From the NCBI GenBank assembly GCA_030532125.1, contig JAUNLU010000003.1:214491-278490 (forward strand): a stretch of 64,000 nucleotides of DNA, in the 5' to 3' direction. This DNA comes from Trueperella sp. GTDB lineage: Bacteria; Actinomycetota; Actinomycetes; Actinomycetales; Actinomycetaceae. This document shows positions 51,834 to 57,933 of this stretch, in pieces; positions within the stretch are counted from its first letter, which is position 1, and every line of letters begins with the position of its first letter. Position numbers and translations under genes: made by a program. The notes below the pieces were generated by a model, which did not search any database, was not told the origin of the DNA, and saw only the letters and a list, made by a program, of their open reading frames with translations.

Positions 51834-52889
51834 CTAGTTAGCTTTTAATGCAGCAGCGATATTTTCCGCCACTGCTGCACCTACTTCACTGGTATTGCGC
51901 TTAGCAGACGCCGGGTCAGCTGCCCGGTATGCCATCTCAGTGGCAACAGCTTGGCGCACCACTTGGGCGGCGCGTTTTTCCCCCAAGTGATCCAGCATGA
52001 GTGCGGTAGAAGATATCGCCGCAATAGGATCAGCTTTGCCGGTGCCGGCAATGTCTGGCGCCGATCCGTGCACCGGCTCAAACATTGACGGGAAAGCGCC
52101 GTCGGGGTTGATGTTCCCCGACGCCGCCAAACCGATTCCGCCGGTTACCGCTCCGGCTTCATCGGTGAGGATGTCACCGAATAGGTTATCGGTGACGATC
52201 ACATCAAACTGCCCGGGATCCACCACCAACGCAATTGTGGCGGCATCAACGTGCAGGTAGTTAGTTTCCACTGCGGGGAATTCTGCGCCAACTTCGGTAA
52301 CTATCCGTTGCCACAGTTTCCCAGCATGCACTAATACATTGTGCTTGTGCACTAAGGTGAGCTTGCCGCGGCGGGCAGCTGCTTGGGCAAAGGCGTAGCG
52401 CACTACGCGCTCCACTCCAAAAGCGGTATTCTGCGAAACTTCGGTGGCCACCTCGTGTGGCGTACCAGCACGCATGGATCCACCCGTGCCGACGTACAGC
52501 CCCTCAGTTCCTTCCCGCACTACCAAGAAATCTATTTCTCCTGGATGCGCCAACGGCGTCGGAACTCCTGGGTAATACTGGGCCGGACGCAGATTTACAT
52601 AGTGGTCAAAATCAAACCGCAGTTTCAGCAGTAATCCACGCTCCAGCAGCCCCGACGGCAAGGCGGGATGCCCAACTGCTCCCAACAAAATCGCATCTTT
52701 TTGGGCAATATCTTGCTGCTCTGCCGCGGGCAGTACCTCTCCAGTGCGCTGATAGCGGGCAGCGCCTAGGTCATATTCGGTGATCTGGAAATCAACCAGG
52801 CCGTGGAGCGCATCCAGCGCCGCGAGCGCCTGCGCCACAACTTCCGGCCCAACTCCATCACCCGGGATGACTGCCAGATTTACCGCCAT
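51834..52889 (-). CDS. leuB: 3-isopropylmalate dehydrogenase
   Basis: LeuB oxidises 3-isopropylmalate in leucine synthesis. The 351 residues contain [26 protein letters not shown], the catalytic Lys in [25 protein letters not shown] and [19 protein letters not shown]. It is of the shorter actinobacterial type. It sits between ilvC and ilvE; leuA, leuC and leuD are not in the window. Confidence 0.95.
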
Positions 52890-52943: not shown

Positions 52944-54008
<1,065 letters not shown>

Positions 54009-54065: not shown

Positions 54066-54596
54066 TTAGGCGCGGCGCAGTGCGAACTCGGCGGAGACTT
54101 TCTCACTCATTGAGCGAGCACCCCGCCCAATTGCCACCGTTCCCGACTGCACAATTTCCTTGACGCCATAGGGTTCTAGCGCATTGAGCAGGGCTTTGAT
54201 CTTATTTTCATCGCCAGTAGCTTCAATAGTTACCGCATCTGGCACTACATCCACTACCCGCGCCCGGAACAGCTCCACCACTTGGATAACGTTGGTCCGC
54301 GTGGCGTCGTCTGCCTTTACTTTGACCATGAGCAGCTCACGCTGCACTGCAGTTTCTGGTTCCAGCTGCACAATCTTGATCACATTAACCAGCTTGTTTA
54401 GCTGCTTATTTACCTGTTCGAGCGGGAGGTTTTCCGCGTCTATTACCAAGGTAATCCGGGACAGCTCCGGGTGCTCGGTTGGCCCCACAGCTAGTGAATG
54501 GATATTAAATGAGCGACGCGCAAATAGACCCGCAACTCGAGCCAGCACGCCAGGCTTATTTTCCACCAATACGGAAAGGGTATGGCGAGTATTCAT
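54066..54596 (-). CDS. ilvN: acetolactate synthase small (regulatory) subunit
   Basis: IlvN confers valine feedback on acetohydroxyacid synthase. The ATG at 54594-54596 (MNTRHTLSVLVENKPGVLARVAGLF) gives 176 residues with an N-terminal ACT domain (1-80) and the usual C-terminal domain ending in GRGARSMSEKVSAEFALRRA. The frame is open upstream but overlaps ilvB. The gap to ilvB is 1 bp. Confidence 0.95.
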   Translation of the reverse strand: MNTRHTLSVLVENKPGVLARVAGLFARRSFNIHSLAVGPTEHPELSRITLVIDAENLPLEQVNKQLNKLVNVIKIVQLEPETAVQRELLMVKVKADDATRTNVIQVVELFRARVVDVVPDAVTIEATGDENKIKALLNALEPYGVKEIVQSGTVAIGRGARSMSEKVSAEFALRRA

Positions 54597-54597
54597 G

Positions 54598-56418
54598 TCA
54601 GTCCTCATCTTCGTGTTTCGGGCGCAGGTCGCGCGCATACAAAATTTCATCGTTAGAAACCCCAGCCGGCACCATCGGCCACACCATGGCATCTGGCGAA
54701 ACTACGAAGTCCACCACAACTGGGCGGTCATTTTCGGCCATCGCCGCTTCAATTGCAGCATCAACTTCGCTCGGGTCAGTCACGGTTATTCCTAGACACC
54801 CGTAGGCTTCAGCCAATTTAGCGAAATCGGGGATATGCACGGTGCCAAATCCGGTATTCAGATCGGAGTGCGAGTAGCGCCCGTCGTAGAACAAGTTCTG
54901 CCACTGGCGCACCATCCCCAGCGAGGAATTATTTATTATCGCCACTTTGATCGGGATGTTATTCAGCGAGCAGGTTGCCAGTTCTTGCCCAGTCATTTGG
55001 AAGGAGCCGTCGCCGTCAATACACCACACCGTACGGTCAGGATTGCCCACTTTCGCCCCCATGGCGGATGGGACGCCATATCCCATGGTGCCGGCCCCGC
55101 CCGAGGTAATAAATTGCCGCGGGAATTCTAGACCTAGATACTGCTGTGCCCACATCTGATGTTGGCCGACGCCGGTGGTGAAGATGGCTTCTGGTGCCAG
55201 CTTTCCCAGTCGGGAGATAACGTACTGCGGGCTCATCAGCCCGTCTTCAGTTTCTTCGTAGCCGATTGGATACGTTTCTTTCAGGCGATCCAGGTACTCC
55301 CACCACTGCCGCATATCCGGCTTGCCGTACTGGTCGTAGGCTGCATCCAGTTCAGCGTTTATCTCAGCGATAGTTTGTTTGACATCGCCCACAATTGGCA
55401 CCTGCACAGCACGGTTCTTCCCAATCTCGGCGGGGTCGACATCTGCGTGGATAACCTGTGCGTCTGGCGCAAATCCATCCACTGTGCCGGTGACGCGGTC
55501 GTCGAACCGAGCCCCGAGAGCCACAATCAGATCTGCTTTCTGCATCGCAGCTACCGCCGGCACTGTACCGTGCATTCCGGGCATGCCCAGATTGCGTGGG
55601 TCGGAATCAGGGAATGCCCCGCGCGCCGTCAACGTGGTCACTACTGGAATATTGGATTTTTCAACCAGCTCAGCCAGTTCTGGGGCAGCATCGGCCAAGA
55701 TGACGCCGCCGCCCACGTAGAGCACCGGGCGCTGCGCCGTAGTTATCACCCGCGCCGCTTCCCGCACTTGCCGCGCATTAGGCTTGGTCTGCGGTAGATA
55801 ACCCGGCAGATCAGTCACGGGAGGCCAGACAAATTCACATTCATCATTCTGGGCCGACTTGGTGATATCTACCAGCACTGGGCCCGGGCGTCCGGAAGAT
55901 GCTATGTGGAAAGCTTCGGCAATTCGCGCCGGAATTTCATTGGCGTCCGTAATCAAAAAGGAATGCTTAACTAGCGGCATCGTAGCGCCGATAATATCTG
56001 CTTCCTGGAAAGCATCAGTGCCGATCATCGAGGCGGCAACCTGACCAGTTATCGCCACCATCGGAGTGGAGTCCAAATTAGCAGTGAGCAGACTCGTCAC
56101 CAAATTAGTGGCTCCTGGGCCCGAAGTAGCCACGCAGACGCCGACTTTCCCAGTGGAGCGGGCGTAACCTTCAGCGGCGTGCCCCGCGCCTTGCTCGTGG
56201 CGCACCAAGATATGGCGCACTTTCTTTGAGGCGAACAGCGCGTCATAAATCGGAAGCGACGCTCCGCCCGGCAGACCGAATACCTCAGTTACCCCCAGCT
56301 CTTCCAGTGAGCGGATGAGCGCCGGTGCACCGGTGGACTTTTCCCGAATAACCTTGCCAGGCTCTCGGGTTGCCCGCGCGGCGGCAGCCAGCTCAGCAGG
56401 TGTGGGCGGTTTAGCCAT
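54598..56418 (-). CDS. ilvB: acetolactate synthase large (catalytic) subunit
   Basis: A ThDP- and FAD-dependent enzyme making acetolactate and acetohydroxybutyrate, the first shared step of Val/Leu/Ile synthesis. The 606 residues show the ThDP-activating Glu in [16 protein letters not shown] near 84, [14 protein letters not shown], and the [19 protein letters not shown] ThDP-Mg motif near 465-485. The ATG follows AGGAGGAAAG. It is the first structural gene of the ilvBNC-leuB-ilvE operon, 35 bp after the attenuator terminator's T-run. Confidence 0.97.
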
Positions 56419-56453
56419 CTTTCCTCCTATCGGACTGTTTTCTTACCCCTAAT

Positions 56454-56482
56454 AAAAAAGCCCCTCAATTGCATTGAGGGGC
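56454..56482 (-). terminator. ilv attenuator terminator
   Basis: A perfect 10-bp stem (minus strand GCCCCTCAAT / ATTGAGGGGC, loop of 3) followed by six T (A-run at 56454-56459). It lies between the leader peptide and ilvB, so it must be read through for the operon to be expressed. Confidence 0.92.
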
Positions 56483-56512
56483 ACACCAGCGAGCAGCAGG
56501 TCAGCTGGTGTG
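56482..56512 (-). promoter_or_regulatory. ilv leader upstream hairpin (pause or competitor stem)
   Basis: A perfect 9-bp inverted repeat, CACACCAGC (56482-56490) and GCTGGTGTG (56504-56512). On the RNA its first arm covers the last codons of the leader peptide (His-Thr-Ser), and its second arm abuts and shares one base with the terminator stem. Ribosome position on the leader would decide whether it forms. Confidence 0.75.
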
Positions 56513-56539
56513 CGGTGTAATTACGAGGAGTACGATCAT
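56501..56539 (-). CDS. ilv operon leader peptide MIVLLVITPHTS
   Basis: A 12-codon frame: ATG at 56537-56539, then Ile-Val-Leu-Leu-Val-Ile, then Thr-Pro-His-Thr-Ser and TGA at 56501-56503. Six consecutive branched-chain codons immediately before a hairpin pair and a T-run terminator are the hallmark of ribosome-mediated attenuation. No ribosome-binding site is present, and the predicted transcription start is at or next to the ATG, so translation is probably leaderless. Confidence 0.88.
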   Translation of the reverse strand: MIVLLVITPHTS

Positions 56540-56546
56540 GGCTTTA

Positions 56547-56575
56547 ACAGTAATCGCGCGATTTTCCGACACCAA
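56547..56575 (-). promoter_or_regulatory. probable ilv operon promoter
   Basis: On the minus strand TTGGTG (56570-56575) and TACTGT (56547-56552) are spaced by 17 bp, placing the start of transcription at about the leader-peptide ATG. The -10 match is weak, so this is inferred from position. A DnaA-box-like TGTGGATAA lies just upstream at 56599-56607. Confidence 0.45.
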
Positions 56576-56750
56576 ATTTATTTCTGAAAATCTCACACTG
56601 TGGATAACAGTTTTACTTTGTGGACGGCGAACATGCAGCGAGATAAACAAACCCCCAGGTAGAGCAAGCAACACTGCAAACTGTGGCGTGCATCCCACCC
56701 CCTGCGCCAGCTGACCAGATCCGCTGGCAACCACCACACTTTCTCCTCAT

Positions 56751-56820: not shown

Positions 56821-57933
56821 TTATTTATCCGGCAACAGCTGGAAATCCATCGTAACCGGATTGTGGTCGGACCATTTGAATCCGGTATCCACCACGGACG
56901 CAGTTGCCACGCTGACGTTATTGGTAACCACAAAGCCGTCCACAGTCACCACAAAATCATCCGGGCCATACGGCCGATCGGCATTGCGGCACGAAGCTAC
57001 CGGATGCTCCGCATCAAATGGCGCAATTAATTTGACATCATCCGGAATAATTTGCGGCGGAATTGGAACCGCCCAGTTATCAGTAAGCGGTGGATGCCCA
57101 AAAATATCTGCCGAATCGCCCAATAGGTCCTTATTGAAATCTCCACCGGCAATCGCATAATTACCCTGTGCCAATTCTGCCTGCATATCCGCAAACAGTA
57201 GCTTCAACTGATTATTGGCAGTGTCTGGATTAGTGGTGTAGGCAGAAAGGTGCACGTTATAGATGAGTAGGTCTTTGCCACCAGCAACTGGTATGCGGTG
57301 CTTTACGTAGCAGCGATCCAAATCCATAAACTTGCTGAAACCCTCTTCAATCGGTAGCGAGCGCCGCGTCGCCTCAACTATCGGAAAATCAGAAGCGGTG
57401 AGAATGCCAGATTTATTTTTCCCATGGGGCTTACTAATTGGATAGAACAGATAGGCGCTGTCATAGTTAATGGCATAGGTGTAGTCGAACTGCGTCCCAG
57501 ATTTAGCTGCAGATTCTGCGCGGTTGGCACGCAGGCGATCCACAATGAGGTCACGTTCGTTTATTTTATGGCTCCGCGTCCCGGACAGATCAACCTCTTG
57601 GAACAGCATGATGTCAGCATTTTGGTCAGCTACCGCCTGAGTGGCACCACCTATATTCTGCTGCACGGCTTCCGGGGAGCGAGCGCGCGATTCTTCGCCG
57701 CCGTCCATAAAGAAGCTGTAATCATCGCTATACGCCCCAAATCCCATATTGGCTGAAGAAATCCGATAGTTCTGGCCAATCTGTACGCTTTCGCTGGCCG
57801 CCCCGGAGACCTCCAAGGCGAGGTTGTCCTCAATGCGGTCATACGACACAAAAACGTATGCCACATACCCCAGAACCACAGCCAAAACTGCGGCTAGTAC
57901 AATTCCAACTCCAGCCGCTATTTTCTTAACCAT
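56821..57933 (-). CDS. membrane-anchored endonuclease/exonuclease/phosphatase (EEP) family protein
   Basis: A 370-residue protein. Residues 5-29 form a hydrophobic N-terminal anchor or uncleaved signal (AGVGIVLAAVLAVVLGYVAYVFV), putting the rest outside the cell. The EEP (DNase I-like) fold shows the metal Glu in MLFQEVDLSG, NVHLSAY, AGGDFNKD and the terminal catalytic pair in WSDHNPVTM. Substrates in the family range from DNA to phosphoinositides and sphingomyelin, so the substrate is not known. The ATG at 57931-57933 is used; a single gene unit. Confidence 0.85.
   Translation of the reverse strand: MVKKIAAGVGIVLAAVLAVVLGYVAYVFVSYDRIEDNLALEVSGAASESVQIGQNYRISSANMGFGAYSDDYSFFMDGGEESRARSPEAVQQNIGGATQAVADQNADIMLFQEVDLSGTRSHKINERDLIVDRLRANRAESAAKSGTQFDYTYAINYDSAYLFYPISKPHGKNKSGILTASDFPIVEATRRSLPIEEGFSKFMDLDRCYVKHRIPVAGGKDLLIYNVHLSAYTTNPDTANNQLKLLFADMQAELAQGNYAIAGGDFNKDLLGDSADIFGHPPLTDNWAVPIPPQIIPDDVKLIAPFDAEHPVASCRNADRPYGPDDFVVTVDGFVVTNNVSVATASVVDTGFKWSDHNPVTMDFQLLPDK

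Follow-up and report, generated by a model that had tools for sequence, protein, structure and literature searches.

The question raised by the 402-nt intergenic region preceding the ilvB start codon (ATG at 56418) is whether it holds a transcription attenuator that senses branched-chain amino acids (BCAA) through the translation of a leaderless mini-ORF and, if so, how two hairpins with only one or two bases in common might act as a switch. The region was analyzed as part of a 64-kb stretch of DNA (hereafter, the window) from a 1.47-Mb genome affiliated with Actinomycetaceae-like bacteria. The IlvB proteins of eight congeners share about 75%; among named relatives, an uncultured Arcanobacterium (72%) comes closest, followed by Arcanobacterium ihumii (67%). 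The attenuator element is encoded on the minus strand (Table 1), where the 5'-to-3' order is operator-like site, -35, -10, leader ORF, hairpin H2, terminator T, six U and ilvB. A plus-strand reading of the coordinates was discarded because ilvB, the U-tract and the leader ORF are all on the minus strand; the plus-strand fold was a mere mirror image. In our judgment, the element is very probably a transcription attenuator that is coupled to translation and serves the ilvBNC-leuB cluster, belonging to the leaderless actinobacterial type.

Table 1. Positions of the predicted regulatory elements and of the ilvBNC-leuB genes within the 64-kb window.
Feature	Position	Strand	Basis
Candidate operator TCCACAGTGTGAGA, upstream of promoter, outside attenuator proper	56591..56604	-	TGAGA-containing site in 30/31 family leaders
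-35-like hexamer TTGGTG	56570..56575	-	17 nt before -10; most genus relatives have a TTGG-type hexamer spaced 17-18 nt
-10 box TACTGT	56547..56552	-	TAnnnT 6-7 nt before leader start in 31/31 family leaders (slightly favorable count, see text)
ilvL leader ORF, MIVLLVITPHTS + TGA stop; without Shine-Dalgarno	56501..56539	-	sequence; counterpart peptides in 9/9 genus genomes
H2 5' arm GCACACCAGC, putative antiterminator-type hairpin; stop codon directly after	56504..56513	-	H2 pairs changed on both sides 5/9, 20 species
H2 3' arm GCTGGTGTGC; final two bases common to terminator	56481..56490	-	sequence
Intrinsic terminator T, perfect 10-bp stem, 3-nt loop	56460..56482	-	20-species alignment: 98% of cells paired, 3 pairs with changes in both partners
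Terminator U-tract, six U	56454..56459	-	sequence
ilvB Shine-Dalgarno AGGAGG	56423..56428	-	sequence
ilvB, acetolactate synthase large subunit (regulated gene)	54598..56418	-	NCBIfam NF005860, E 1.9e-302
ilvN ORF, acetolactate synthase small subunit; actual start probably close to 54596	54066..54692	-	NCBIfam NF008864, E 7e-67
ilvC, ketol-acid reductoisomerase	52944..53969	-	NCBIfam NF004017, E 4e-169
leuB, 3-isopropylmalate dehydrogenase, final gene of the cluster	51834..52889	-	NCBIfam NF002898, E 5e-163

From the ATG at 56539, the leader codons are ATG ATC GTA CTC CTC GTA ATT ACA CCG CAC ACC AGC TGA, whereby six of the 12 codons of MIVLLVITPHTS are consecutive Ile/Val/Leu codons. H2 pairs CACACCAGC with GCTGGTGTG over 9 bp (56512-56504 with 56490-56482) and is extended to 10 bp by G56513-C56481. 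The terminator, GCCCCTCAAT-GCA-ATTGAGGGGC (56482-56460), lies together with its six U 41 nt before ilvB. Depending on whether H2 is counted with 9 or 10 bp, one or two bases (G56482 and C56481) are common to both stems. The sequence-only reading had described precisely these features, i.e., the six-codon run before a 9-bp hairpin, the abutment of this hairpin on a perfect 10-bp stem with six T in front of ilvB, and the one or two shared bases; all were found, on the minus strand. The element is not a chance arrangement. In 5000 dinucleotide-preserving shuffles of the 402-nt region, short ATG ORFs with an Ile/Val/Leu run of at least six appeared 19 times; no shuffle yielded a perfect 10-bp stem with T6 (0/5000). 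Such an ORF is unique in the window on both strands, and the folding of 56575-56454 gave a z of -3.3.

The combination of a short BCAA-codon ORF, H2, T and ilvB recurs in all nine genus genomes and in every family leader examined. Each genus genome holds one element, located at ilvB (9/9), with a weak additional match in two of them (one each, E 0.1 and 0.85). The genus peptides include MSIILVVVQRTSR, MTNILVVVSQRTGR, MAKILVVVS and MTTLLVVIN; the Ile/Val/Leu codons are retained in leaders that otherwise diverge, and the position of the stop is tied to the H2 5' arm. In a 20-species alignment, 8 of the 15 pairs of H2 and T have changed on both sides while 88% of cells are paired; this covariation was equalled in none of 500 shuffles, and sliding the pairing partners by 1-3 columns lowered both the paired percentage and the covariation score. 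Folding and covariation among relatives had been proposed as a check of the attenuator reading: the peptide and the stems are conserved, H2 and T covary, and the identity as an ilv attenuator is now supported by this comparative evidence and by published close analogues.

A covariance model, R1, was built from the 20-species alignment without reference to ilvB. It matched 103 of 297 class genomes at E<=0.01, the matches in the window and its genus being there by construction as members of the training set. Of 29 loci inspected outside the genus, 28 encoded IlvB beside the match; the sole exception (L144) lies before a citramalate-synthase-like ORF. Streptomyces ilvL loci outside the training set were detected with E ~1e-6, and one Mycobacterium locus (L080) gave a marginal match (E 0.05). 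R1 works where Rfam gave no family match for the leader (best 21.3 bits vs. a gathering score of 50). A search for the Corynebacterium leader by a degenerate pattern returned 0 hits in 395 class genomes, the pattern probably being strict or the genus outside the sample. R1 also matches leaders before citramalate synthase-like (cimA) genes (L144, L168, L188, other Actinomycetes). These have Ile-rich mini-ORFs and the layout GGCGCGCC...GGCGCGC-AAA-CCCTTCGC...GCGAAGGG-T6 and are, on this layout, probable isoleucine attenuators of like design; a literature search for cimA-type leader attenuators found no description of them.

An alternative that we regard as unlikely is that T is a constitutive, amino-acid-independent terminator and that ilvB is controlled mainly at its promoter, via an IclR-type regulator at the TCCAC-TGTGAGA site. 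The operator-like site is indeed conserved, mostly as the CCA(C)-N/NN-TGTGAGA type 63-65 nt before the leader start in the 31 family leaders; it loosely resembles the motif of NdgR, an IclR-type regulator that binds upstream of ilvB in Streptomyces coelicolor (PMC4340878), and is possibly an NdgR/IclR-like operator. A whole-genome scan found one exact copy, at ilvB, and 2-mismatch matches barely above the control. Moreover, the passage of PMC1262725 that cites Craster 1999 gives the replacement of leader codons in S. coelicolor as without effect on the regulation of ilvB, a result which counts against the attenuator reading. On the other hand, a constitutive terminator sits poorly with Ile/Val/Leu codons kept despite the divergence around them and with a stop whose position follows the H2 5' arm. 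In C. glutamicum and M. tuberculosis, moreover, mutating leader codons or the start codon does have an effect. In the window, the operator-like site overlaps TTATCCACA, itself matching the DnaA-box consensus.

As to the start of the attenuator transcript, the promoter spacing indicates that the leader mRNA most likely begins at, or within one nucleotide of, its own start codon. The -10 box of the window ends 7 nt before the leader ATG. A TAnnnT box stands 6-7 nt 5' of the start codon in 31/31 family leaders, compared to 1.6% at arbitrary positions, a count slightly favorable in that, for some leaders, the -10 was taken into account when choosing between neighboring start codons; most of the 31 leaders have a single start-codon candidate. 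A Shine-Dalgarno-like 4-mer precedes the leader in just two of the 31. The counterparts read TTGACA-N17-AACACT-GAACGC-ATG in Arthrobacter and TTGACA...GAGGGTCAGTGCC-ATG in Streptomyces. A sigma-70 consensus scan detected no promoter at the leader because the -35 is weak, and the comparative spacing was used instead; its constancy supports leaderless initiation. The earlier proposal of a sensor peptide translated without a ribosome-binding site thus gains support from the -10 spacing and from published analogues. For this organism, we infer a leaderless start, an amino-acid response and a role of H2 as the antiterminating element. AUG at +1, as suggested by the promoter spacing, would then be a conserved design feature.

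It is quite improbable that the same attenuator is preceded by a longer 5' UTR, with the leader translated from a ribosome-binding site on RNA that originates at a promoter farther upstream or reads through from gene 56821-57933. This gene is on the same strand, and in the window an extended in-frame reading frame with upstream GTG or TTG starts is open. However, the extended frame is missing in two relatives (L002 and L006), 29 of the 31 family leaders are devoid of a Shine-Dalgarno sequence while all 31 keep the -10 at 6-7 nt, leaderless starts have been reported for counterparts in three species, and a sizeable inverted repeat (~56796-56750) separates the upstream gene. That repeat, AATTACGACGCCG...CGGCGTCATAATT on the minus strand, lies downstream of 56821-57933, has no T-run and could possibly mark the end of the upstream transcript. 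A ligand-binding riboswitch ahead of ilvB, e.g., for ppGpp, is hardly credible: ppGpp riboswitches do precede ilvB in some bacteria, but no Rfam family matches, the conserved parts are codons and stems with no aptamer core, and the Corynebacterium counterpart was unresponsive to ppGpp in in-line probing (PMC10272879).

The translation-coupled attenuator would operate as follows. Transcription would begin at or beside the leader AUG, on which a 70S ribosome would start directly and decode Ile-Val-Leu-Leu-Val-Ile. With ample BCAA-tRNAs, the ribosome would reach the UGA directly after the H2 5' arm, cover this arm and block H2; the full 10-bp terminator could then close flush with the U-tract and transcription would stop before ilvB. 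With scarce BCAA-tRNA, the ribosome would stall on the upstream codons and H2 would form first, taking the basal T bases (G56482, C56481) and/or crowding the base of T. The T stem would be shifted off the U-tract, allowing read-through by RNA polymerase.

In the window, the two states have almost the same energy, -29.4 kcal/mol for a 10-bp H2 with an 8-bp T vs. -29.5 kcal/mol for an 8-bp H2 with a 10-bp T. Folding by ribosome position, in which just the RNA left free by the stalled ribosome (masked 5' ends) was folded for 31 species, showed that H2 formation in the window depends on the position of the ribosome and that competition there is limited to the two basal bases of T. The basal T pairs of the window had a P of 0.64 at early stall compared to 1.0 once the ribosome occupied the stop codon, and across nine genus members the early-stall values were 0.62-0.72. 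The T body had an equilibrium probability near 1 at every ribosome position, and mutual exclusion is therefore weak. A classical antiterminator did not emerge from the masked-5'-end folding, which gave T in all states; the sequence-only reading had already considered it not obvious, and H2 and T, with 2 nt shared, can indeed coexist. Likewise, an H1 (anti-antiterminator) was not identified in the leaderless RNA, the MFE upstream stem requiring bases before +1. In three other leaders (L021, L036 and L038; Arthrobacter-type, Ruania), the sensor codons are able to base-pair with the loop of H2, for instance TTCGTTACC with GGTAACGAA, as a candidate 1:2 protector hairpin that is absent from the window. 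The near-equal energies match what has been called a 'fast attenuator' and therefore favor a ribosome-gated H2 that shortens T or crowds its base.

About half of the family members have no H2-T competition: H2 falls short of T, leaving a gap of 0 to +3 nt. Base stealing can therefore not be the general mechanism. The strongest upstream hairpin ends no more than 3 nt from the terminator at 49 of 64 loci, compared to 39 of 320 shuffles (12%). A tentative generalization, which we hold to be possible rather than probable, is that Actinomycetes have a leader class in which a translation-gated hairpin flush to T (gap -3 to +3 nt) antiterminates by abutment, with no mutually exclusive antiterminator. 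Where H2 and T overlap, this would occur by base stealing; otherwise, the hairpin might interfere sterically or by stacking at the exit channel of RNA polymerase. If true, abutment would constitute a general geometry of attenuation in its own right, used for ilvB and, judging by the second matches of R1, for cimA. Antitermination by a hairpin overlapping the terminator by just 0-3 nt is in any case a testable mechanistic question.

In enterobacterial ilvGMEDA and ilvBN, ribosome stalling on BCAA codons controls the terminator; these leaders are Shine-Dalgarno-led and rely on extensive, mutually exclusive 2:3 vs. 3:4 pairing. In contrast, the H2/T overlap here is 0-3 nt and, as had been anticipated from the sequence, the switching geometry differs from theirs, with H2 and T coexisting and sharing 2 nt. 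The nearer analogues are actinobacterial, and predictions of ilvB leaders with terminators go back to 2005, covering Corynebacterium, Mycobacterium and Streptomyces (PMC1262725). In M. tuberculosis, attenuation of ilvB1 has been described, with LVVI regulatory codons, masking of the antiterminator at the stop codon and an intrinsic terminator, although in a longer leader RNA with the U-tract ending at +126 (PMC13236596). The S. lividans IlvL peptide MRTRILVLGKRVG, called leaderless from RNA-seq (PMC8079986), is encoded by the Streptomyces loci recovered here. It shares with our leader the BCAA ORF, which is probably leaderless here too, and an AGCGCG...CGCGCT hairpin abutting a CCCCTCG terminator before ilvB, and differs in a longer H2 loop holding its own hairpin. 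For the C. diphtheriae leader MNIIRLVVITTRRLP, RNA-seq mapped the beginning of the transcript to the start codon of the leader (PMC5784534). The ilvB-II motif (103 representatives, with reporter data; Narunsky 2023, PMC10272879), whose leader was tested by reporter in C. ulcerans, likewise has a uORF and two stem-loops, the second a terminator, before ilvB and once per genome, but it is defined on Corynebacterium only and its uORF is mostly 45-51 nt.

The closest counterpart is ilvBNC of C. glutamicum (leader MTIIRLVVVTARRLP), compared here from published descriptions and not by sequence alignment. According to the passages of PMC11857589 that relate Morbach 2000, its leader has no ribosome-binding site and a +1 one nucleotide from the start codon, changing ATG to AGG lowered expression by 80%, and exchanging the Val for Ala codons abolished the valine response. 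Terminator mutations raised expression 7-8-fold (PMC11857589), and the system has been termed a 'fast attenuator' with shared boundary bases (Ryabchenko 2025, PMC11857589). Both systems have the same kind of operon, a BCAA-rich short uORF that has no ribosome-binding site and begins, by prediction in our leader, at +1/+2, a hairpin adjoining the terminator with shared boundary bases, and an expected short attenuated RNA. They differ in the number of leader codons (12 here, 15 in C. glutamicum), in the shared H2/T bases (2 vs. 3), in the distance of the terminator stem end from +1 (~80 vs. 113 nt) and in that the leader codons here form no clear H1. For C. glutamicum, the design has already been described in full, down to the geometry of the overlap. 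Our literature search found no paper on such a leader in Actinomycetaceae; the leader is a fresh example, from this family, of a switch type known from Corynebacterium, Streptomyces and Mycobacterium, and it very probably extends the leaderless translation-sensing attenuator to the Actinomycetaceae, with class-wide homologues.
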